Shown piece after piece: positions 1-30,943 of a stretch of DNA of 64,000 nucleotides (the first letter of the stretch is position 1; each line of letters opens with the position of its first letter). Made by a program: the position numbers and the translations under genes. Under the pieces are notes generated by a model. The model did no database searches and had not been told where the DNA came from. It saw only the letters and a program-made list of their open reading frames with translations. This DNA is from Corallium rubrum (Eukaryota > Cnidaria > Anthozoa > Scleralcyonacea > Coralliidae): NCBI GenBank assembly GCA_964035015.1, contig CAXIUP010000146.1:26001-90000 (forward strand), in the 5' to 3' direction.

Positions 1-626
1 ACACCACAAAAAGGACAAAACATTACCGTATTTATAGTGGACTTTAGATGTTCTCGAGTAGGAAACGATACGTTTTCGCGCCCGCGCTGTCAGTGTCCTG
101 CGGCAATTTTTTTGCATTGACAAAACTTTGTTTTTGCGTTGATCGATAATGTTTTTGCATTGTAATTGTAAATATGTATTTTGCATCATGAATACTTTTA
201 TTTTGTATCGAATAATTTTGTTTTGTATTGAAAAAAGTTTTAGTGTTTTATAAAGTTTTTTATTGCACTAAACATTTGTTTTGTGCATTGCACTTGTGGG
301 CCACCGTACCTTTGGGGCTAATGAGTCCACCTTACTGTACACATGCACAGTTAACAGACAGCATCACCTGAGAGTGTGAGGTCCGAAACTTGGGTCACTG
401 TAGGAGCCAGTGGTGGCTGGAACAGCTGGTTCAGCTCTCTTTCTGTTGGTCATTGCATGTCTCTTTGGAGGGGGGTGGCTAACAGTAACCAGAACAAAAC
501 TTCCTAAGCAAATTAGATGTCATGTGCCTGAAATCTCAACCATTTGCCAGATGGCAAGTATTATTCATATTTAGTGTAAAAATAGTGTCTAAAATAAGTA
601 CTCAGTAGAAGTTCCATAATTTAATT
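1..626. other. AT-rich non-coding start with TTTTGCATTG-like motifs
   Basis: No coding region is recognised. From about 110 to 300 the motif TTTTGCATTG and close variants (TTTTGCGTTG, TTTTGTATTG, TTTTGTGCATTG) recur about seven times at irregular spacing, in a style like the subterminal motif arrays of the transposon at 20.4 kb. The minus strand at about 380-480 has a short open stretch of roughly 30 codons that I could not assign. The last, catalytic exon of the HECT gene to the right was looked for here and not found. Confidence 0.4.
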
Positions 627-718
627 TCAATCAGGTCGAAATAGAAAGTAACCACGAAGCAGAGGGTAGCACCAGATTTGAGAAAAAAAATGAATATAGA
701 ATATAGTGTGTAAGATAC

Positions 719-3700
719 CTTCATAGTATAAGGCTTGGACAAAATCTGAAAAATACTTTAGAATGTCTTCCTCTTTTGATTTTAGCAACTGTTCTTTGCT
801 GAAATGAACAACCAGTCTCTGCAGAAAGTCATCTACTGTCATATCAAAGCAAGAGGACGCTGTGAAGACAGGTTCGAACACTGATGGATGTTTTCGAATT
901 TCACTTAACAAACCACACAGCTGCAGGCCTTCTTCTATCTCTTTTAACATTGCTATCTTTGGTGCAATGGCATCTTTTATACAAATACATCTAAACATTG
1001 CAGTAAGGTAAAAAAAGGTAAATGTTGTCTCTGATTCAATGCTAAGATTCATGTGTAACAAAATATACATTCACTGATATTACATAATTAATTATTTGTA
1101 ACACTTAAGTACTTTAACAAAGTTATAATATTTTTGTTAAACATGGTTGTTCAGTAAAAAATTTCTAACTCAGCAAGTCCAAGTCCACCTGCTCTCATCC
1201 CATTGGGGGACCATTCCCCCTGGCCCTTCTCCACGTAGTTTATATACAAGTAATGAAAATTAAAAGACAATCTACCTTAACAGGGAATCTTTGTTCTTCA
1301 TAGTTTCCCTAGTAGGGATCCGTCTGTATCCAATTGCATCCAACTCAGTCATGACCTCATCCTGCACCAGAATTTCCTGCAGTTCTGAATCTGAACTCGC
1401 ACCTGAAATCTTTTAAGATGACAAATAAGCAATTCCAAAGTCATTTAATTTCATTAGACTAGGCAGGAATTTAGCCCATGCACCCCATCACTACATTGTA
1501 CAGTGTATTAACTTTTGACAAGTTGTCATTCAATTTATAACACAAGTACAGGAGGGAAAGAACATTGGGGCAAGCCTGATTTTTTCTCTCTTATACAATA
1601 GGTTTGAAAAGCATTTTGGAAGTTGTACAAAGCATGCAATGCAAGTATATGGCATAACATAAAGTACAGTATCCAGAATACTGTGAATTCTTACCTTCTC
1701 AGCCATATGCCTACAAGAATCACTTCTGATGTCTTCAACACTGATGGAAACCATATCAAGACCTCCAGAGAGGTACTGATAAACCCAACCAGCAAGGAAA
1801 TTAGGTGCTGGACCACCTTGTATGACACTGGATGCCATTATCTGACCTGCAATCTTGAAGTGTCCCTCAGTCAAGGACATTGTGCTATTGACTGGAGCAC
1901 CATCACTGAATAAGCGAATTTCCATCTGCTTTAGCGCTTCTAAAAATATTGAAAATTGACACGACTTAGTTAATAATACATTTTTAAAAAATGAATATGG
2001 TTTTAACATACATTCATGATCACATCATAAATACTTTAATAATTATATACAGTATTCATAAAATATTAATAATATTCATCATAAATATTTTTAAATATAT
2101 ATTGTAGTCTGCACCACTTACTATTTTTTTAATTATTATTTTTTTAATTATTATTTTTTTAATTATTATCTTTTTAATTATTATTTTGTTAATTATTATT
2201 TTTAATTTAATATTATCATAATTTATTTTTAATTTAGGAGGGGGTGCATAAGCGAGTGCTTGCTCTATAGTGTTCGAAAAAGCATGGAAATTTCCATCAA
2301 AATGATAACACTGGTCATTTTTTTGCCTTTCTTAGGGGGGTGCTGGAGACTTCATGGGGTGTGCACCCCAAGTAAATCTGCCTATGAATTTTGTTGGTTA
2401 TTATTTGAAAATTGCTCTTGAAAGCAAGATTTTGGGAAAGTAACAAGTTATCGTGCAGCTGCTCAGTGCTCTTTACAAGGCAGATCAGCCCTGGCAAGCA
2501 GCTGATTTTTCTCATCTAAATGCACAAGTAAAAACTAGCCCTAAGAGGGCTAGCTAGCCCTTCAGGTAGGACTCAGGTAAACATCTCCAAAGACTCCCAC
2601 CTGAATCTTCACTTATGACAATATCCAATATTCAGAATAATATTTCAGAGCTAGTAATAGCAGACACATATTTAATCTACATTTACCAGGCTTCTGAAAA
2701 ATGTTAGCTACAAAGTGTAAGTCTACAAGTAATTGCAAAGATAGTTTAGAAACAACGTTGTTTTTACATACCACAGAAAAATTCTCTTTTTGGTCCTCCA
2801 CCATCAACAGCAGGCTCCCCAACGAAGGTGACTTTAAGGGAATTCTCAGGTTTGAACCACTTCCTATGCTTACTTGCTTCCACATAATCTTCCCAGAGAA
2901 GTTTGCGGCGGACATAGATTGAACTTCTTGCTTGTCCGACCTTCTCCTGTAGAGATTCTAGACATTCTTTCAGACTTGTTAGGCCACTGTTTGGACTTTC
3001 TTCAACAGAAGTTGAATTTTCTTCATCTCCATCCGATATCACTTCATATGGAAATTCCATCAATATATTTCCATATGTTTGCCTACTGAATGAAATACCT
3101 TCAGCAGCTTCAGCACACCCATCTGCATGTTCGGCAATTTCTGTGCTTGGAAAATTGGTATTACATGTTGGGCAATTGACTTCAGTGACGATCGGACTAC
3201 TCCTGATACTGGGACCATGAGTGCTCAAACTACCACTGCGTCCTTGCACTATATTTTTCGTAATGCTTTCAGTACCAGTGCCAGTGCCCATCTCATTCTT
3301 TCCGAATGCAGAAATGAGCAAAATATCATCATCGCTTTCCATTGGAAATTTTTCTTCCTTATCACTATCCCAGTTGGAGCTGTCATCACTTGCGTCTTGT
3401 TGGGAGAGTTTCAGGCTAATCGCAGAAACAGCACGGATATACACCGGTCCTTGCTTGTTAAGGTATTTCAAGACTTTACCGTTATAGTTCTCACAGGCTG
3501 GGTCCATAATTTTATTCCCAACAGCTCTCATGAACTTGAACTTTGGTTCGGGGAGATCTTTGAAATTTTCGTTAAATGCCGTGATCATCTTCCTTCGTAT
3601 TTCCTCCTCGGTGTCGGCGTCCCGAATTTCAAATGCAGAAATAACACACCCATGCGTATATAGCTCTTCGCGTTTTGAACCACGCGGTACGTCCTCCATT

Positions 3701-4098
3701 TTGGGTGATGGAAAAAGCACGACATCTCGCAACACAGGTTTATCGTTTGATGTTGACTTCTCCTCCCCACTTGCCTGCCGCTTCCGTTTTTGGCCTTTGC
3801 TTTCATTCTTCTTACCTTTTTTAGGCTTGTAGTTGGTCGATGGGTGAAAATTGCGAATACTTGGAACATAATTTCTGTCTGGCACATTTTGATTTTCGGT
3901 TTGACTAGTTTCACCCCTGGCACTGCCACTGAACTGTGTGCACGCACGTGCGGAATTTACGCTGGGATAAAGGCGCCCAATTTGTTCCTCGACCGACTGG
4001 CTATTTGCTCTATTCGCATTTTCATTATTAAGGTGATCTCCATTGTCTCTTAAATTTTGCACGGCATTAATCAAACGATTCATAAGTTCTTCCGCCAT
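719..4098 (-). CDS. HECT E3 ubiquitin ligase-like gene (G2E3-like), exons 1-4, catalytic exon not seen
   Basis: The predicted product is a HECT-type E3 ubiquitin ligase, which would pass ubiquitin from an E2 through a catalytic cysteine to a substrate. Exons read on the minus strand: 4098-2772, 1939-1695, 1409-1276 and 990-719, all with GT donors, AG acceptors and matching phases. Exon 1 encodes a conserved N-terminal module (VLRDVVLFPSPK...VPRG), an acidic linker, a UBZ-like C2HC finger (CPTC-x13-HADGC) and the HECT start (VGEPAVDGGGPKREFF). Exons 2-4 continue the HECT N-lobe (GQIMASSVIQGGPAP, DAIGYRRIPT, DFVQALYYEG). The start chosen is MAEELM at 4098, because the paralogue at 21 kb starts at the equivalent place; an in-frame Met lies 21 codons upstream. 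The C-lobe with the catalytic Cys is not in the window, so the gene is partial or runs past position 1. Its nearest relative is the transposon-borne gene at 21-26.6 kb. Confidence 0.75.
2105..2235. repeat. Degenerate AATTATTATTTTTTT tandem repeat
   Basis: Five to six consecutive units of about 18 bp built on TTAATTATTATTTTT lie in the intron between HECT exons 1 and 2. This is simple low-complexity sequence. The following stretch (2240-2400) has G-rich GGGGGTGCATAAG and GGGGTGTGCACCCC segments that look like a degraded non-autonomous transposon end, but no pair of ends with a target duplication could be fixed. Confidence 0.6.
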
Positions 4099-4224
4099 TC
4101 CGATACGATATGTACTAAAAATTTCAATATATACACATCGCAACATATGGTCAGCGGTCAACTTTCATGCGCCCGCGATATATTGAGCCCGCGATCAGTT
4201 GTGATTTTCAGAATAGTTTTATTT

Positions 4225-4292
4225 TTTCGAAGAAGTCTTGTTATCGAAGAAGTCTTATTATCGAAGAAGTCTTATTTTCGAAGAAGTCTTTT
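4225..4292. repeat. Short tandem array of TCGAAGAAGTCTT upstream of the HECT gene
   Basis: Four copies of TCGAAGAAGTCTT separated by 4-5 T/A-rich bases (period about 18 bp) lie about 130 bp upstream of the HECT start codon on its 5' side. The position and regular spacing would suit a repeated protein-binding site in the promoter or in a transposon subterminal region. That role is inference. Confidence 0.6.
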
Positions 4293-4499
4293 TTTTTTGC
4301 AAGATGTGTTTTATTTTCTTTTGAAAGTTGTATGCGCGTATGTTTACAAGTTTGATTTTCTCGAACAAGTCTTGTATATTGTGCGAAGTATTATGTTTCA
4401 GCTCCAAAGTATTTTTGTCCCGTCTGGCGCGCCATACTATTTGGTCATAACTGGCACAAAACTATGCATAAATATGTTTCACGAGGAATGTTTAAGATA

Positions 4500-20408: not shown

Positions 20409-20414
20409 TTTTTG

Positions 20415-21003
20415 TATGGCGTGCCAAGATGGACAATATTACTTTACGTCCATTCATACAATGTATATATCAAATATGTAATTTCAAATATATTTTTGTA
20501 AGCCGAAATTACCATATATAAAACGAAACAGAAGTATATATAGCGAAACAGAAATATATACAACGAAACAGAAATATATAAAACGAAACAATCATATATA
20601 AATCGAAACAACCATATATAAAACGACATTAGTATATATAAATGATATTGGGCATTTCACTCGATTACATAGCATGTTCTAAGGATTTAGGGTGAAGGAA
20701 AACTCGAGTGTAGAATATATACATTTTAAGACCAAACCGGGAGCAGTTGCGAAAAATGCAACTACACAGGCCCTCCGGCAGGAATTGAACCCACGACCTT
20801 GCGATTCTAGTGCAATGCTCTGACCATATATCTGAAATATTCTCAAATATAAAACGAATATCCCCAAATATATGAAACGAAATTCGTCAAATATATAAAA
20901 TGAAATTCCTCAAATATATAAAACGACATTTCCCAAATATATAAAACGACATTTGAGTCAATTTGACTAAAATTAAACGACATTTTTGGCGAGAAAGAGT
21001 GCG
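20415..21003 (+). repeat. Left terminal inverted repeat with subterminal motif array
   Basis: After the 20-bp tip the repeat holds more than a dozen copies of an approximately 20-bp word, TATATAAAACGAAA followed by CAGA, CAAT, TTCG or CATT, mostly in one orientation. The inner end reads CGACATTTTTGGCG, matching the right arm at 29031-29060. Repeated subterminal words of this kind commonly bind transposase. The arm is interrupted at about 20642-20828 by a tRNA-like SINE fragment absent from the right arm. Confidence 0.88.
20642..20828 (-). mobile_element. tRNA-derived SINE-like insertion in the left arm
   Basis: The minus strand reads TGGTCAGAGCATTGCACTAG (A-box-like) and then GTGGGTTCAATTCC (B-box-like), spaced as in a tRNA promoter, followed by a non-tRNA body. 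The insertion separates parts of the inverted repeat that are contiguous in the right arm. A short related segment (GATATTGGGCATTTCACTC) recurs in inverted orientation near 63746-63766, outside the Polinton. Confidence 0.7.
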
Positions 21004-23297
21004 ACTAATTTATCCGGAGTAAATTTTCTGTAACCACGCTTATGCAAATATGGCGGGCAACAGAAATCTGCAAAGTTTATCAAATCTTGTCAAAGCAATT
21101 TCTCGATTGAGTCAAAGTAGCACAGAGACCCGTAATAGTGGGGAGACGCAAGAAACTACAGACGACGTGGAAGCAACGATACCAACGCTCTTTCCTTCAA
21201 CGAATGGTCAATTAACATCGACACAAGCAAACCGAAATGAAACTCGCGTGGTCGCGGAACATGGCGCGCTGAATATGCCTGGTCGTCGGTACCCCGAAAA
21301 CGCAGAAAGATTCGTGCCTAATCGCAAATATGGTACCAAGTAACGGCCAAGAAACGTGAAGAATTCGACCAGCAAAAAGCCCAAGTGCAACGAACAGCGG
21401 ACAGTACTGAAAGACGTAATTCTTTTGCATGGTCCAAAGCAAGACAAAGTCCCTCGTGGCATAGCACGAGAAGCACTGTTTGCGCTTGGTTTTAGCACGA
21501 CGTTTGAACTGAGCATTACTATGCAAGAAAGTGAGATCAGGAGTTTACTGGAAGAAAAATTTAAAAACAAACTTGAATCTATTTCCAGAAAAGGCAACAA
21601 GTTTCAGTTCGTAAGAGGTATAAACAGCAAAATCATCTCTTTTGAAAATATTAATCAACAAGAGTGCCAGGCGCCATGTGACGGGAGACTTCTAAAACAC
21701 ATTTCCGGTCAAGGGCCATTGTACATTCGCGCAAATGAAGATATTAGTGCACCTCTGCAGGCATACTTCAATTCCAAACAAAGGAGACATGAGAAAGATG
21801 ACAACACAGATGATGAGATGGAGTCGGAGAGTAGCACTGGAGACGAGGAAGCAATTATGCGAAATACAATGCATAAGCCTCGCCCAACCCCCAATGTAAG
21901 AGTAGACCTAAGTAATTTGGATGATGGCACTGCACCTGGCGAAGATAGTGTTCCAGACTGTGACCCGTTACCTGCCACAGGTGAATCATCAACTACAATG
22001 CCTTCAACATCTACAGCCCGTGCACCAGAACAGCTTATACGTGTACGTTGCCCTACATGCGAGGGAAGTTTTTCCAGCCATGAAATCGAGGACCATGCTG
22101 ATGGATGTGCTGAAGCTGCCTGGACTGGTTCAGAACACCTAGTGTATGCTAGATTAATGACAGACATAGAGACTGATGACCAAGATCCCTTGGAAAACCA
22201 ATCAGCTGCAGGGGAGAACAATTCAGACCCTGAAACTGACGATGTCAATCCAGGCATCCCACCACCTGTTGATCAGCAGGATAATTGGGACCCTACAACT
22301 GATGGAAGTCCAGCAGACATGAAGGCTGAATTGATTGGTACCTTGCAAACATTGCAAACAAACCTCAACACACGTACCAATAGGATCAATGTCCAGAGAA
22401 CAAGTGTCCTTGATGATTACATTGATGCACGCAAACGATGCCATTGGATGCGTCCTGAAAACCGAATCAAGGTTGTTTTCATCGGAGAACCAGCAATTGA
22501 TACTGGTGGGCCAAAACGTGAATTTTGTTCTGGTAAGTAAGTTTAATTTTACAAAAACTACATTTTAATAGGCAAATCAATTTGGATTTGTTAAACATTG
22601 GAGATTTTCATTTTTGTAAAGCAAAAACTTTTGGCATGTGAATATAAGGTATGTAAATATTTTTAAGCATTGCCATGTTCACCAAACGCAAAAGATGTTT
22701 TTGTTTTCAAGTCCTGTCATATTAATGCTGAGTCCTGTGTGGTGACTGGTGTGTTTGCCCTTATAATTTATTTGAAATGAATAATCTTCTAATATGAAAT
22801 ATACTTTTATCTTTGTAAGATGTGCTTGGGTACAGAATCGACTATTTGACCGGAATGGAATGCCAGTTGCAAGCACTCTGGCATTGACACAGGACCTCTT
22901 TAAATATGCAGGTGAATTGATGTCAATATCCATTATCCAAGGTGGGCCTGCACGAAACTTCTTGTCACCTGTCATATTTGATGTAATTGCTAAAGGTCTG
23001 TCAAAAGCTGTGTATTCCCTGGAGATGATTGAGGAACCAAATTTGAAAGAAATTGCAACCCAGGTACAGTATTGACTGATTAAAATTAAAGTAATGATTT
23101 TTCTTATGTTTTGTTAATTAAACTATTTGTTCCAGCCAATTGACCTAGGGGTGGATTTACCAGGGGTGGACAAGGAATGAGTTTATGGTATTCAAGTTTT
23201 AAATATTTGAGATATTCAACATTTGTTATCAGTCTTACTGTAGCTCCTTAGGCCTACTTAAGTTTTGGAATTCAAACCAGCACTGCAGTGGCACACA

Positions 23298-23473
23298 GTG
23301 GCGGTTCTAGAAGTTAGTCACATAAATTAGCAGCTCGCAATTTGAAATTCAAAATACCTGAATAACAATCCTATTGGTTATCTGAATTATTCTTTGCAAA
23401 TGCCTAACAGTAACCAATAAGGTTGTTATTAAGGTATTTTGAATTTCTGACATACTTCTAGATCCGCCACTGG
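23298..23473. mobile_element. Small MITE with long inverted repeats in a HECT intron
   Basis: The ends are CAGTGGCGGTTCTAGAAGT and, inverted, ACTTCTAGATCCGCCACTG. The inner halves (GAAATTCAAAATACCTGAATAAC and TTGTTATTAAGGTATTTTGAATTTC) also pair, so the 176-bp unit folds into a near-complete hairpin. The hAT-like tip CAGTGGCGG suggests an hAT MITE, but no clear 8-bp duplication is visible. Confidence 0.65.
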
Positions 23474-24231
23474 ACTGGTATAGTACTAGTTCAAAATACC
23501 CAATATTAATAATTGCCATGCCTCTTGACTCATGACTTGTGTAATGTTGACTGTTGAGGTTTTGGGAATTTATATCATAATAAATAATGAAATTGTATTT
23601 ATTCAACATATCTGCAAATTGTGCAATTAATGTAATGAACAAACTTCCAAAGGTGCAACCTTGCTTGCCCATGACAGTAACTTTATACAATTATTTTTTA
23701 TCCTTGTTACTTTTGGATTGGCTCCCAATTTAAAACTTAAAGTATTAAATGGTGATTGGGTTTTCTAAACAATCGAGTTACCATAATTACTGTACATGTT
23801 TATAGATTGATTCTGTGGATACTGATGCTGATCTACAATCTAAACTCATGGAGGATAATGTTCTTGTTGTGCTTGGCCAAGTTGGCTATAGAGGGATCCC
23901 CAACAGAGACTCTTGGATCAAAGGATAAAATAGTCAGGTATTATCACACATCTTTCGGTATAAGTATAGGTAATCATGCAATGAGGAGTACAATCAAGGA
24001 TTAACAGTGCAAATGATGTTTGAAAATGTTGCCAAAATTGCACGAGCCGTTAGGCGAGTGCAATTTGGCAAATCTTCAAATATCACGAGTAGTGTAAATA
24101 CTTAATTGCACAAGCAAAATCATATGATTACTTGTTTATTATTTACATGACAAAATTACGTTTAGCAACTTACTATTTCACTTTCTTTTCCGCCCTTTAA
24201 TAATTGCACTCTCCTTTATTGCACTCGAGTG

Positions 24232-24395
24232 CAATTAATGAGGGTAATAGAACGACGAGGAGTGCTATTAATGCCAAAATCATATGAGTGATTACAAAAT
24301 CGACCGACCGCGAAGCGGGAGGTTGATTTGTTAATCACGAGTATGATTTGGCATTAATAGCACGATTCAATTCGTTCTATTACCCATTAATTATA
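24232..24395. repeat. Foldback hairpin in a HECT intron
   Basis: GGGTAATAGAACGA ... GTGCTATTAATGCCAAAATC is matched in inverted orientation by GATTTGGCATTAATAGCAC ... TCGTTCTATTACCC, with a loop around CGACCGCGAAGCGGGAGG that is itself palindromic. This looks like a small foldback or MITE. It is followed directly by the larger inverted-repeat unit at 24387-25135. Confidence 0.65.
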
Positions 24396-25135
24396 TATAC
24401 TTCTGTAATCAGGTCATTCAGGTCATGTCCTCGTCTTCTTTGTTTTCGACAGCAAATACTTCATAGTAGCCCAACTTTTGGGTTTTAGACCTAGGCCTCT
24501 CAACATGGCCCGCAAAAAATGCAAATGTCAGGCGGCCATTTCTTTTAATATACGGAGACTCATCGAGGAGTTTTTTTAATAATAAAGTGAATTTATGAGG
24601 AGTTCATACAATTGTATGTGAGGTCAAACCGGGAGTTATTGATAAAGAATGACAAGAACCAAAAATGTGAGTAATTTAGTGCTGTTTGTCTTTACTTTAT
24701 AGCGTGTTTATACGCATGTTTTTATAAACACACTCATGCAGTTTAAGTTTACTGTATTTCACCGAGTGTTGCTACTTTACTGACTAAAATATTTAAGAAA
24801 TACCCGGGTGCCAATCTGGGTAATACTTTGTTTTTAATTTGTTGGGGACACGACACTGTTTTCAAAACGTATACAAAAAAATACAAATTTAAATTCTATA
24901 TTTTAATATTTAAAATCCTCCATTTTTTAATTTTTTTGAAAAATCCCGGAAAATCCTACAGCTTAGGTGCTGAACTGTGATTGGACAATTTTGATAGCTA
25001 GCTTGATTTCCATTGGCTGAAGCAGGTGTGCGATTACAGCTAGCAAGAGGTGCGATTAATGTTCAAATCGCACTCCTCTAAACCAATGAAATTGCAGTAT
25101 TTGGGCCTGATTACAGAAGGATATATAATTAATCA
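24387..25135. mobile_element. Foldback/MITE-like element of about 750 bp
   Basis: The left end, ATTATATATACTTCTGTAATC followed by AGG, is matched in inverted orientation by CCTGATTACAGAAGGATATATAA near 25107-25132. No coding capacity or clear target duplication is seen. It lies in the long intron between HECT exons 3 and 4. Confidence 0.55.
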
Positions 25136-25258
25136 TTTTATTGTACTCCTCTCCACCAATCAGCATCCAGTAATTTTGTCATGTATATAATACTATATAC
25201 TGTACTGCATGGTGAATTGTGTTCACCTGATGTCAAAATAGCCAAGTACATGTAAAAC

Positions 25259-25727
25259 CAGGGGTGGATTTACCAGGGGGTGGCAAGGGTGTACACCCCT
25301 GTTGGCCTTGGTCAACATGGGTGCAAAGGGGTAGGGACATTGCTAAATGGAGTCAGCAAATTTAGAAGTGAGTCAGGTAAAATAAGGTTAACCTAACCTT
25401 GGTTATGTGGACACTTTCCAAAGGGGAGCTTTAATGGGAGTCAGCGAGTTGGTGCCACACAACCCCCTGCACAAATAGTTCTAGCTACACCCCTTTGAAA
25501 GGGGGTGCAAAAAACTAAGTTTATATTATTTTTAAATAATCTATACATAGAGACCCCAGAATCCCAAAATTCCTTGCACCCCCCGGACCAATTTTGTCCC
25601 CACAACACAATCCTGCCTTCACCTCTCCCCCCCAATAAAAACTACAGCCCTGGTTGATGTGTTCTCCAACAACACCCAGAAGTCAATTAACCCCCCCCCC
25701 CTAAAAACCTTGCTGGATCCACCCCTG
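25259..25727. mobile_element. hAT-type MITE (469 bp) with 8-bp duplication
   Basis: The ends CAGGGGTGGAT and ATCCACCCCTG are inverted and flanked by the exact 8-bp duplication TGTAAAAC (25251-25258 and 25728-25735). It carries no gene. A related left end (AGGGGTGGATTTACCAGGGG) occurs at 23148-23168 without an obvious partner. It lies in the HECT intron just before exon 4. Confidence 0.85.
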
Positions 25728-27180
25728 TGTAAAACAACATTCCTGGTAAAAGAACAAAATATATTCATTCTTCCTGCAGGTCTATAATAATCAAGTCACA
25801 AATTGAACCAAAGTTGGGCATGATAACGCAGTTAGAAGAGGGCCTGTCTGTCTGCAAGCTATTAGATGCCATTCGTGCAAGACCAGCCTTGTTCAGAGCT
25901 GTTTTTGTGCCTGGTTGCATATTTGATCATGATGCAGATGAGTTCTTGGATGGGTTGAAGGTTACCTTTAGTGAGAACCAGAAGGAAAGAATTGTTGAAG
26001 CAACAGTTTACAAACATTTTTGTGATTTTGTACTGTTTCTTCATAATGATGGTTAGTACTTGATGGTTAATCTCATGCATGGTTCTGTGCAACAATTGCC
26101 ACAAATTGCCTTGCATGTTGTAGCAAAAATGCCTTGTGTTTAATTGGCTTTTTGCCATTTCCTTTTATACAGTTTTCCTCATTATTTGAAATTTTGTATC
26201 ATGAAACTGGAAATATTTTTTAGCTTTTTAATTTCAAATTCCATTTAAAAGTTGGATTTCTGGCATCATAGACAATCCAAAACACAAATATCTTTTGGAT
26301 TGTCTATGCTGGCATGAATAGTTCGCTCAAAATATTTCATAGGTTTATGATATCACATTTATACTGTACATCAAGCTATATATACTGTACTTTCAGGGAT
26401 AGAAGAGCACGATTTGAAGTTACCGCATCTTTTACGTTTCGTAACTGGATGCTATTCATTCCCTCCACTTGGTCTTCCTGATTCTATCAAGATCAAATTC
26501 CTGCATGGTTGTCACAATGGCTGCAAGTGTTGTCCAACAGTGTCAACATGCCAATTGTTCATCAGGCTTCCAGTTCATGCAGCTACATTTCAGTATATGA
26601 AGGAGTTGATGGTATTCTGCCTTGCTGGAAGGTTTTGGGTTTGGCAAAATATAAATTGCCATATTAACACATTGCTTGTTATTATTACCATACATTGTAT
26701 TTATAGTATGAATGGAAAAGCAAAAACAATCATATGTATTTTCTACATTATTTTCTATAATAACCTTTTTACAATATATATATATATACAGTAGGGTACT
26801 ACATTACAATTTACTTTATTTAATTTTGTTTTGAGTGACAGTAAAGACTTGAAATTTGTGTTATCCACATGGTACTAAATGTATTTGGGAAACTAGATGT
26901 GTAATTTACAAATTACCTATTGAGGTTCTTAACCAAACTATCAACTCATGTATGTCACTCAATTCTTTCATCACTCATATTTTGCCCTATTTCTAGCAAT
27001 TTTTCTTGGACAGTGAATGAACTTTAGTTCCTTGCACCCACTTTTAAAATTGTGCAACCTGCACTAAAATAATCTGAGTTCAAATGTCAGTTTTTTCATC
27101 ACTGTCAAATATTTTCCTGTACTTTACATGTTTGTTGTTCCAATTAGGTTTTTTGTCCCTGTTTATAATATATTGTCCAG

Positions 27181-28856
27181 TCAGGCATCAAGGATCATTT
27201 CAAGTGCTTCACATGCATTCACAAAGAGATATTTACCGTGTTCGTTATCTTCATCTAATGGATTCACTAACAATACTAATATGGCCATCTCCTTATCTTC
27301 AAGAACGATATTTGATTCAGGTATCTCCACATGATTCACTGTTCGAATTTCAGGCATTGGACCATCATCATCAATACCATAGGAATTCACATCCAGTGTT
27401 TCTGGGTTTACAACATCTCTCACCGTTTCATAATTAGAGTTGGCAAATTCATAAAAACCCTGCACCCATACTTGATAGGGGCTCCTATTTCCTTCAGTTG
27501 AAAGAGGGTGGTTGTTCCATTGTGTTGCAAATAATGTGAGTGCCCTGTTAATTCGAGGTTTAAACACATAATGAAGGGCAAATAGGTGGACTTCGTCCAA
27601 TGGATCCAGTAAATCGAGAGATTCCAGATAAAAGAAGAGATTACGGAAGTAACTGATGACATATGTGTTGACATCTCTCCACAATCGTTCAATCCTTTGA
27701 TTATGGACAGAAAGGCCAGTTAAAATTGGTTTTGAAGTGGGTCCAAAATGCTGCAGCATCCACCTGGCAACACCAACATTTTCTGTCCCATGATCACTCC
27801 GAATTCGACGAGGACATTGTATGTGGACATGCTATTGAGAAACAGTTGAAATACTGTCTGACTTCTGTTGTCACAAGCACAGCCAAGATAAACAATAGCT
27901 CTTGAAAACCCATCAATTCCTCCATGAACTACAAATCTCCATCGGATCATCTTGTGATTACCATCTATGTGCCTGAAATTTTAAAACAATAATATTCATA
28001 TTACAATTACATCATGCTTGATGTCTTACAACTACTCAATTTTGGCTCTTTAAAATAGTGTCTACCGTAACATACTACAATGAATTACAATCTGGTTGTG
28101 ACCCTCAAATCTTGGAAGGAGAAATAGTATATTGGTCCATACCCCTCCCCCCATTAAATCCATCATTAACCTCGTTCCCAGGGCCTTTCCCCAAAAAATA
28201 TAAGGTAATGACATGAGATACCGATAACATGCATAGTTGCCATGATTCATTGCTTTTGGCATCAGTTGCAGCTAAATATATAAACATAAAAAATCATACC
28301 ATAATGCATTAGGTGTTCTAACACTGTATAGTCTCCGATGGATGGCAGTTCTACGTAATTCCCTGCTAACAGGATCTATTCTTCGGATAGATTGTCGTAC
28401 TCTCTCTCTTTGTACTTTGACACCATACCCCTTTAATGCTCCTATGACCATTCTTTCACCAGAGTTTGGAGAATAGTGTGAGATGCGTTGGACAAATACG
28501 TCTAGCTCATCATCATCTATTTCACAATAGTTCAATACCTGACCTAATGTCATTCCAAGTTCACTCCGGCGTCTACGCACTGTTTTCTCTGAAACACCAA
28601 GCATCAGGGCTATCTTTTGCCAGGAAAAATGCAGTGAACGTAAGCCTTCAAGTTGCTGCTTTGGGATGAGAAATCGAGCTCGACCTGCACGTCTTCTAAC
28701 GTTCTCTTCAAGCGGGCAAGCATAGTTACAGTCGTCATTATCATCGAAGAAGTTAAATCGCTCAATAAGTCTCGAAATACGTTCTTGAAATTCCCCAATG
28801 ACTTCTTGAAAAATAAGACAAACGTCCTCCGGCCATGGCACAGCATGGTAGAACAA
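27181..28856 (-). pseudogene. Integrase-type (rve) transposase of the HECT-bearing element
   Basis: Two exons on the minus strand, 28856-28301 and 27972-27181, join in phase across a GT/AG intron. The N-terminal exon has a helix-turn-helix-like segment (WQKIALMLGVSEKTVRRRRS) and a basic region (RRIDPVSRELRR). The second exon carries the catalytic core: first Asp in HIDGNHK, second in a DHG context near 27800, and Glu in NQRIERLWRDV. This DDE order and the NQRIERLW box are typical of integrase/IS481-like enzymes. A one-base deletion near 27826 separates the first and second Asp frames. The true start is unclear: the frame upstream of 28856 is broken, although an ATG at 28988 lies just inside the right terminal repeat. 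It should cut and join the element ends. Confidence 0.82.
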
Positions 28857-29028
28857 AGATAAACCGCAAACGAATTCCTCACATCAACAGCAGCATCGTC
28901 AGTAAATGAATTACACACCAGTTCTTCATAAAGGTTAAAACCATGTCTAAATATTCGATAACGTCTTCTCTTGCGGCTAGTTCCGCCATGTTTCTACGAT
29001 TTTTGGCGCGACATTTACTTCCATTGTA

Positions 29029-29417
29029 TCGCTCTTTCTCCGCCAAAAATGTCGTTTTATTTTAGTAAAATGTCGTTTTAAATATTTGGGGAATTTCGTT
29101 TTATATATTTGACGAATTTCGTTTCATATATTTGGGAATATTCGTTTTATATTTGAGAATATTTCGTTTTATATATATACTAATGTCGTTTTATATATGG
29201 TTGTTTCGATTTATATATGATTGTTTCGATTTATATATGATTGTTTCATTTTATATATTTCTGTTTCGTTGTATATATTTCTGTTTCGCAAAATATACTT
29301 CTGTTTCGTTTTATATATGGTAATTTCGGCTTACAAAAATATATTTGAAATTACATATTTGATATATACATTATATGAATGGACGCAAAGTAATATTGTC
29401 CATCTTGGCACGCCATA
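29029..29417 (-). repeat. Right terminal inverted repeat of the HECT-integrase transposon
   Basis: This is the inverted counterpart of the left arm, uninterrupted. It carries about twelve copies of the word (T)TCGTTTTATATATTTG or its variant TTTCGATTTATATATG, and ends CCATCTTGGCACGCCATA. It is followed by the duplication TTTTTG. Confidence 0.88.
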
Positions 29418-29623
29418 TTTTTGAGCTGTTAACTTTTAATTCTGCCTTTGCAAAACATCTATTGCATGGGGAAGCCATTTTAATAAACGCTTGCTAAAAA
29501 TAATCCCTTTTGAAACCTCCTATTAAAAAACAATATAATTTTTAGAAATGAAATCTAAGTTTTGGTTTGATATGTTCAACTTTCATTAACTTGGATCTTA
29601 AGGAATTAACTTGGATCTTAAAC

Positions 29624-30943
29624 ATGGCGGACAACATGTCGGGAGAATTGCTCGTGAAAAAACAAAATCTAAGTAGCTTAAAGGTTGTTCAACTAAAAAA
29701 AGAACTCGCAGAGAGAGGTCTAACTGTGTCAGAGAACAAAAATGATCTGATTGCGAGATTAGAAGATTATTTAACAGGTCAGGATGGAAAGGATTGTGAT
29801 ACCGAATTGATTATTAGCGAGACGTCTGTGGCCAGATGTAAATCGGCAAAGTCTGTTGCTCAACGAGAAGAAAGCCAAGAAATTGATTTACCTGAGGAAG
29901 AAGAGGCTTATTGTAAGGACTGCAATAAATTAGAAATCGAGATGATGGAAGTCAAACTTGAATTGGCCATGTTATGGGCGACAGTAAACCAAATGAAAGT
30001 AAAGTCATGTAATGGCGACATGCAAGAAGACGAACATTCGAGCGGTTTGAAGCCAAACGTCAATAAGTTACTGGAGGAAAATAGAAAACTGGAAAATGAG
30101 CTTGATAACCTAAAAGCCAAATTTAAAGATCTAACAAGTGAAAATGAAGCGATTAAGCTTATGTTAGATTTAAAGGCAGAACAATCCTCGTGGTCAAAGC
30201 CGAAGCGAACTTGTTCTAACGTTAGCTTGTTGTCCAACCATGACAATGAAATACCGACAACCTCAAATCGTTTCGAAGTTCTCGAAGTCTCTCAGCCACT
30301 ATGCGATGAAGAAGCAAAACAGGCAGAAACCAATTTACGCATTGAAGCTCAGATTACTGATTACCGTGCTGTGCAAAAGTCCAAACACAACCAGTTTGCG
30401 TCGCCTCGTAATACTGATTGTGATCAACCCAGTGGAGCTGAATGTCAGACTAAACGGGTTTTATTGGTAGGAGATTCGATGGTAAAGAACATTAATCAAT
30501 CAAAAATTGGGAAAGCATTTGGTGGGAAAGCTGTTTGCCATTCTTACAGTGGAGCAACGGTGGTCGATCTTCACAACAAAGCACAGGAGGGTTTGTATAA
30601 CCACGAATATAATGCTATGATATTTCATGTGGGTACTAATGACCTGGTAAACAATGATCCTCAGGACGTCGTTGCTAGGCTGGATAGTTTCATTAAGGAC
30701 GTTAAGTTATATTCGAACACGATAGCAATTTCTAGCGTCATTGAACGGAATGACGGCAGAGTACCTCGAAGTAAAATTACAAGTTTTAATAATCTGACTC
30801 GCGATTTGTGTGCAAAGCGAGCTGTCCATTACATTGACAATGACAATATAGATAAGTCATATTTGAACAGATCTAAACTTCACCTAAACAATAATGGTGA
30901 GAGCATTAGGCAAAAACATATGCACATTTTCAAAATCAGTTAG
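29624..30943 (+). CDS. LINE ORF1: SAP domain, coiled coil and SGNH esterase-like domain
   Basis: A protein of about 439 residues if started at MADNMSG (29624); an upstream in-frame Met at 29567 is less likely. Residues about 15-50 form a SAP-like helix-extension-helix (LSSLKVVQLKKELAERGL), a DNA-binding motif. Residues about 110-190 are heptad-rich and likely coiled coil, for trimerisation. The C-terminal half is an SGNH/GDSL hydrolase fold: block I VGDSMV, block III HVGTND, and a C-terminal KLHLNNNG where the catalytic His is expected. Esterase domains are known in CR1-clade ORF1 proteins. The N-terminal SAP motif is less usual. The role is assumed to be nucleic-acid chaperoning or particle assembly. 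Confidence 0.8.
   Translation: MADNMSGELLVKKQNLSSLKVVQLKKELAERGLTVSENKNDLIARLEDYLTGQDGKDCDTELIISETSVARCKSAKSVAQREESQEIDLPEEEEAYCKDCNKLEIEMMEVKLELAMLWATVNQMKVKSCNGDMQEDEHSSGLKPNVNKLLEENRKLENELDNLKAKFKDLTSENEAIKLMLDLKAEQSSWSKPKRTCSNVSLLSNHDNEIPTTSNRFEVLEVSQPLCDEEAKQAETNLRIEAQITDYRAVQKSKHNQFASPRNTDCDQPSGAECQTKRVLLVGDSMVKNINQSKIGKAFGGKAVCHSYSGATVVDLHNKAQEGLYNHEYNAMIFHVGTNDLVNNDPQDVVARLDSFIKDVKLYSNTIAISSVIERNDGRVPRSKITSFNNLTRDLCAKRAVHYIDNDNIDKSYLNRSKLHLNNNGESIRQKHMHIFKIS

Follow-up and report, generated by a model that had tools for sequence, protein, structure and literature searches.

A HECT ubiquitin ligase gene paired with the transposase gene in IS3EU/GingerRoot-type transposons of Corallium rubrum

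In a 64,000-nucleotide stretch of the 474-Mb genome of Corallium rubrum (contig CAXIUP010000146.1, here C161, positions 26001–90000; hereafter the window), a gene for a HECT E3 ubiquitin ligase lies beside an integrase-like transposase gene, between the inverted ends of a 9.0-kb DNA transposon (element 1). This raises the question of whether the ligase is a trapped host gene, occasional cargo or a regular part of the transposon. We consider it very probable that element 1 is a two-gene cut-and-paste transposon of the IS3EU/GingerRoot superfamily, with a convergent gene for a HECT ligase that has a catalytic cysteine, and that the same pair recurs in many diverged families. A sequence-only reading of the window had described the HECT gene as transposon cargo; the gene does travel with an integrase-like transposase in a DNA transposon, but in the loci examined it is a conserved second gene rather than occasional cargo, as indicated by convergent HECT C-lobes at 27 of 30 loci, the retained cysteine, the correlated divergence of the two genes and the constraint on amino-acid change.

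Element 1 and its copies

The ends of element 1 read exactly TATGG and CCATA, and the window contains the 20-mer TATGGCGTGCCAAGATGGAC at exactly two places, 20415–20434 on the forward strand and 29398–29417 on the reverse strand; given a mean of 0.00 occurrences in 100 shuffles (up to 3 mismatches allowed), a chance origin of the ends was rejected. A perfect 6-bp target-site duplication (TSD), TTTTTG, is present on both flanks, as the sequence-only reading had reported, and the matching terminal inverted repeats (TIRs) proved longer than it had stated: the outer arms (20415–20642 and 29190–29417) agree at 216 of 228 positions, and inner arms (20834–20944 with 29055–29165, and 20961–20991 with 29041–29071) carry the repeats inward to approximately 20991 and 29041; subterminal repeats of 20 and 23 bp lie within them. 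Within the left repeat we also observed a SINE (short interspersed element)-like dispersed repeat (start from the DNA search, end by eye; Table 1), which recurs in at least 33 other places at 95–99% identity among the best 40 of 364 candidates scored.

The two genes converge, and both the ligase with its UBZ-like finger and the intron-containing integrase-type transposase were found as the earlier reading described them; the finger reads CPTC..HADGC (in exon 1), and the transposase has a DDE core (PF24764). Each gene starts just inside one repeat (approximately 59 bp for HECT and approximately 52 bp for the transposase), and the two repeats are thus the 5′ flanks of the two genes. The best database relative of a transposase fragment is 97% identical and carries the name of the octocoral Paramuricea clavata; transfer of transposons between species is possible.

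When the left 400 bp of element 1 served as a DNA query, 47 matches were obtained (best 40 of 364 candidates scored) and, apart from matches to the SINE-like repeat, four loci with element-1 ends, in the window and on contigs C20, C13 and C53. Both genes are held by three of the four. The C20 copy (L009 570–9974) is full length, carries both genes and its own TSD, and is 93–98% identical to the window copy over large aligned blocks; the C53 copy, truncated on its left side within HECT exon 1, retains both genes and the right end; and the C13 copy (L011 664–2117) is a 1.45-kb derivative shortened by internal deletion, in which both ends and the start of HECT exon 1 remain. HECT sequence is therefore present at all four loci among the candidates scored, and a pattern of the same ends lacking HECT as a rule, which the earlier reading had named as a counter-case, was not seen. 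Its other counter-case, a unique host HECT gene trapped between two unrelated insertions, is ruled out by C20, a second full copy elsewhere with its own duplication, and meets further elements of the same plan (element 2, C203 and C195, below); we give it virtually no credence.

The gene pair in diverged families

Part of a second, diverged element lies in the same window. Element 2 (C161:5943–30436, 24.5 kb) has the ends TATGGCGCGCCAGACGGGAC and a duplication on both sides, and repeats the layout of element 1, with convergent genes that each start at a repeat (the transposase approximately 37 bp inside the left one and HECT approximately 50 bp inside the right one). Its transposase, of two exons that are both open, and its HECT C-lobe exon lie upstream of the window; its HECT gene, on the reverse strand, is 29–37% identical to the relatives of exon 1 with which it was compared, and reaches 42% against parts of P0141, a protein of P. 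clavata. The last HECT exon is 17 kb away, behind nested insertions; as both ends were found, we read the whole as a single element of 24.5 kb whose last HECT intron measures 17 kb, and a division into two loci (with a separate transposase and C-lobe locus at C161:7.4–9.6 kb) was ruled out. Two side observations concern this intron: among its nested insertions is a remote integrase-like match (C161:25022–25510, L017; 29–31% identity, minus strand) that may be another mobile element, and an inverted repeat with 300-bp arms of 93% identity (C161:19055–20053, L017) is perhaps a nested foldback element.

Three further elements carry both genes. That at C203:1121238–1129771 has them between inverted ends, with open frames covering the matched exons of both; that at C195:81632–91388 has 320-bp arms that are 99.7% identical, and a frame break in HECT exon 1; and the ends of that on C82 fall in long tandem repeats and are unplaced. 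Both ends and perfect, mutually different 6-bp duplications were found for five of the eight elements whose ends were sought (TTTTTG in the window, TTTAAC for C20, CTATTT for element 2, GGTATC for C203 and TGTGGG for C195).

A genome search with the transposase of element 2 gave 144 scored matches of 1008 candidates, of which the best 30 were examined with 1.5-kb flanks. A convergent HECT C-lobe lies downstream of the transposase at 27 of these 30 loci: 17 lobes were found within 1.5 kb by tblastn; approximately 6 kb more flank added L036, L040 and L044; a profile of the first 17 lobes added six (L046, L050, L058 and L062, and, in longer flanks, L045 and L061; E 5e-17 to 2e-5); and the lobe of L054 was found by profile in a later stretch (E 9e-26). 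The 13 loci that had given no lobe by tblastn could thus not be taken as HECT-less families, as longer flanks and the profile supplied one for 10 of them. L052 has weaker evidence, namely matches to the exon-1 and whole-protein profiles only, in the right place (E 0.0025 and 8e-6), and L056 and L059, which resemble L054 in the search table, show no C-lobe within the 1.5 kb read. None of the 30 loci showed a downstream lobe in the opposite orientation. The C-lobe profile matched none of 491 open reading frames (ORFs) of four other genome stretches, none of 3317 ORFs of 14 IMG/VR stretches and none of 1139 ORFs of the window outside elements 1 and 2. These 14 IMG/VR stretches bear the end pattern, which was taken as chance there, and served only as negative controls; no relatives of the transposase or HECT appeared in the IMG/VR scans, and none of the transposase in the GTDB genome scan. 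A diverged HECT partner also accompanies the intron-less transposases of L045 and L061. As a separate observation, some transposases are single-exon (approximately 500 codons; L045, L061 and many others in the search table) and others share an intron position (..PN.LW / H.DGNHK..), a possible lineage marker.

The two genes appear to have a long common history. Their distance matrices are correlated (r = 0.82 for 17 loci; r = 0.816, p = 0.0001 for 13 non-redundant families), HECT exon borders are common to the families (near P0141 residues 402, 486, 530 and 623), and the catalytic cysteine persists in all 27 C-lobes although identity drops to approximately 20%. In comparisons of element 2 with four other families, synonymous change has reached or nearly reached saturation (proportion of synonymous differences, pS, 0.66–0.82), and non-synonymous change is 0.27–0.44 for HECT and 0.16–0.35 for the transposase (aligned codons only, HECT exon 3 left out); amino-acid change in both proteins is constrained between families. 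Among young copies of element 1, HECT exon 1 lies under the neutral ratio of 3 in one of two comparisons (window versus C20: 15 amino-acid versus 12 silent changes and one stop, p = 0.02). This pattern would fit one ancient acquisition of HECT, followed by selection on a working ligase.

Several points weigh against a conserved two-gene transposon. All genomic evidence comes from one genome, and mobility is read from sequence, no copy having been seen to move. Neither gene of the window copy is intact, which the sequence-only reading did not mention: exon 1 of HECT contains an in-frame stop, the reading frame is interrupted in later HECT exons, and in the transposase it is interrupted in both exons. 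For the C53 copy, a further 10 kb outward yielded no left end, and the C13 derivative has no matching 6-bp flanks and is perhaps a recombinant. The 30 loci are the best of 144, with the other 114 outside the count, and favour relatives of element 2 since the query came from a HECT-bearing element; they include element 1 (L060) and element 2 (L034) and contain near-identical sets (L034/35, L041/42, L047/49, L055/63, L058/62 and L054/56/59). At L046 a weak HECT-like match (E 2e-4, uncounted) is found on the upstream rather than the downstream side of the transposase. In the other young-copy comparison of HECT exon 1 (C53 versus C20), 8 amino-acid and 5 silent changes give no sign of selection by themselves (p = 0.21), nor do 7 and 3 changes in transposase exon 1 of young element-1 copies (p = 0.47); an exon-2 count against a frame-broken reference is given no weight. 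Moreover, co-divergence is expected from physical linkage alone and is thus no proof that the two proteins interact.

Classification and possible roles of the ligase

On the basis of ends, 6-bp duplication and protein layout, we assign the elements to IS3EU/GingerRoot, a placement made by these features rather than by a tree of named families. As described in the text of Kojima & Bao (2023, PMC10045372), this group has TA..TA ends, 6-bp duplications and an integrase-like DDE transposase without the HHCC motif, whose first catalytic D lies 100–300 residues from the N terminus. Likewise, element 1, C20, element 2, C203 and C195 have TATGG..CCATA ends with perfect 6-bp duplications; the transposases contain a DDE integrase core (PF24764, E 9e-35 to 1e-86), with D, D and E found by a simple motif scan at 25, 28 and 28 of the 30 loci, respectively, and all three at 21; exon 1 has only helix-turn-helix Pfam matches and no HHCC; and approximately 250 residues precede HLDGNHK in element 2 and C195. 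The IS481-like and Ginger families, with which the earlier reading proposed a comparison, differ in features such as TSD and TIR length: Ginger1 has a 4-bp TSD and an N-terminal HHCC, and IS481EU has TSDs of approximately 4, 15 or 25 bp and TIRs mostly below 50 bp (PMC10045372), whereas here the TSD is 6 bp, HHCC has no Pfam match and the TIRs measure approximately 230 bp and more, so that both were rejected.

The closest parallel in the compared literature is a set of fungal IS3EU elements with TET/JBP and alpha-kinase genes (PMC12730594, 2025), which, in the text available, have TAYGG..CCRTA ends, 6-bp TSDs, TIRs longer than 30 bp and an alpha-kinase gene in orientation opposite to the transposase. 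The coral elements resemble them in ends, TSD, long TIRs and a second enzyme gene opposite to the transposase, but the enzymes there are alpha-kinase and TET/JBP, with no occurrence of HECT in that text. Given these fungal genes, the superfamily seems to hold various enzymes beside the transposase. The main text of PMC10045372 likewise contains no occurrence of HECT or ubiquitin, in difference from the elements described here; no paper naming both IS3EU and HECT, and no description of a transposon-borne HECT ligase, was found among the papers listed in the literature searched, which left out Repbase, preprints and most subscription papers. Another useful comparison is with RAG-like (RAGL) transposons. 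These have a Transib-type transposase and a RAG2-like partner, not a HECT ligase, and RAG1 itself contains a RING ligase. The likeness lies in two convergent genes, one for the transposase and one for a partner protein (PMC7204232).

The HECT proteins are predicted ubiquitin ligases, by their HECT domain and catalytic cysteine, features shared with animal G2E3 and other HECT ligases. The HECT exon of the window alone matches PF00632 at E 2e-4, under Pfam's cut-off, and P0141, which is named 'G2/M phase-specific E3 ligase-like' and is a member of the transposon HECT family (64% identity between its C-lobe and a lobe beside a transposase, L075), at E 7e-13; the closest solved structures to P0141 are HUWE1 HECT domains (E 1e-8). 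HECT exon 1 has 24 database matches, one of which bears a species name. Vertebrate G2E3 has PHD-type fingers, unlike the transposon proteins, which have a UBZ-like finger and an N-terminal region without significant Pfam match. The C-x2-C..H-x3-C spacing of the finger fits the UBZ4 type. The AlphaFold model of P0141 is poor overall (predicted local distance difference test, pLDDT, 50.3), the homologue of the finger being among its few better blocks (residues 251–280, pLDDT 85–93; another is 171–190, pLDDT 85–87), and the modelled fold would fit the beta-beta-alpha fold of ubiquitin-binding UBZ4 fingers. By sequence, its matches to solved chains are weak (RAP80 E 0.009, WRNIP1 E 0.05 and RAD18 E 0.24), with unrelated chains from E 0.3.

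From this layout a mechanism can be envisioned. The inverted repeats may serve both as transposase binding sites and as promoters of the two genes, in which case both proteins would be made together. The transposase would excise the element and insert it with a 6-bp stagger, while the UBZ-like finger could bring the ligase to ubiquitin-marked DNA or chromatin, where it may ubiquitinate proteins at the transposition complex. Our guess at the target is the transposase itself (that is, for release of the ends) or a host repair or silencing protein, which could be bound by the faster-changing N-terminal region.

That the ligase has a selected function in the life of the transposon is well supported, and the long-kept pairing suggests that it helps the element to move or survive. 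It might do so by marking a host silencing or restriction factor for degradation, comparable to the proposed use of fungal TET/JBP, and we hold this as a possible but tentative explanation. Between element 2 and C195, identity is 46% in the N-terminal region and 72% in the C-lobe, and such faster N-terminal divergence might be shown by a part that faces the host; in addition, TET/JBP genes, for which an anti-silencing role (escape from methylation) has been proposed, occur in some fungal IS3EU families (PMC12730594, in the text available). However, fast N-terminal divergence also fits a simple lack of constraint. Just as conceivable to us, and held no more firmly, is that the ligase regulates how much of the element's transposase is present, or removes the transposase from the ends once strand transfer is complete. 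The gene pair is kept together and co-diverges, although linkage alone predicts the latter, and the same repeat flanks both genes, which are thus probably co-expressed.

We find it improbable that the HECT gene is a passenger of host origin, taken up by chance or in repeated captures and without function for the element. The broken HECT gene of the window copy would fit this reading, as would the large number of G2E3-like genes in animals; yet HECT is present at 27 of the 30 loci, convergent each time, and the common exon borders, the correlation of divergence, the retained cysteine and the constraint on amino-acid change speak against it.

With somewhat less than even confidence, we propose that animal IS3EU/GingerRoot elements are as a rule two-gene transposons with an obligate HECT partner (in the position of the fungal alpha-kinase), and that many 'G2E3-like' HECT genes of invertebrates and fish are, or descend from, this transposon gene. 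A derivation of animal G2E3-like expansions from such elements is only suggested, by one protein, P0141; an unclassified repeat matching G2E3 in Cottus fish (PMC5638112, in the text available) would fit a transposon origin. If true, a whole group of animal DNA transposons would carry protein ubiquitination as a standard feature, and the multiplied G2E3-like HECT genes of some animal genomes could be explained. A transposase with its own ubiquitin ligase would offer a testable system, parallel to RAG1/RAG2, and caution is called for with ligase genes of this kind in gene catalogues, as they may belong to transposons.

Features of the window

The coordinates of both elements are collected in Table 1.

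Table 1. Parts of elements 1 and 2 in window coordinates
Feature	Position	Strand	Remarks
Element 2, right part	1..4436	−	HECT exons 1–4, 4098 to 717; right end TATGGCGCGCCAGACGGGAC at 4436
Element 2, right TSD	4437..4442		CTATTT; left one precedes C161:5943
Element 1	20409..29423		9.0 kb
Left TSD	20409..20414		TTTTTG
Left TIR	20415..20991	+	20-bp and 23-bp subterminal repeats; SINE-like insert ~20632–20830
HECT gene	21050..~26632	+	Five exons by comparison with relatives
HECT exon 1	21050..22532	+	N-terminal region, UBZ-like finger (CPTC..HADGC), HECT domain start; one in-frame stop
HECT exon 2	22827..23066	+	Matched part, tblastn with P0141; frame break just upstream (by eye)
HECT exon 3	23807..23941	+	Position inferred by comparison with C20; window copy unmatched by tblastn, its frame broken (by eye)
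HECT exon 4	25778..26053	+	
HECT exon 5	26393..26632	+	C-lobe, catalytic cysteine (STC)
Transposase gene	27181..28989	−	Convergent with HECT gene
Transposase exon 2	27181..27974	−	DDE integrase core (PF24764), broken frame
Transposase intron	~27975..28298	−	Between ..PNALW and (R)HIDGNHK..
Transposase exon 1	28299..28989	−	Helix-turn-helix; broken frame near start
Right TIR	29041..29417	−	
Right TSD	29418..29423		TTTTTG

Directly beside element 1, at window positions 29567–30943, lies a 458-codon ORF that encodes a SAP domain (E 3e-10) and matches a GDSL-like hydrolase slightly under the cut-off; it is possibly part of a retroelement or a host gene.

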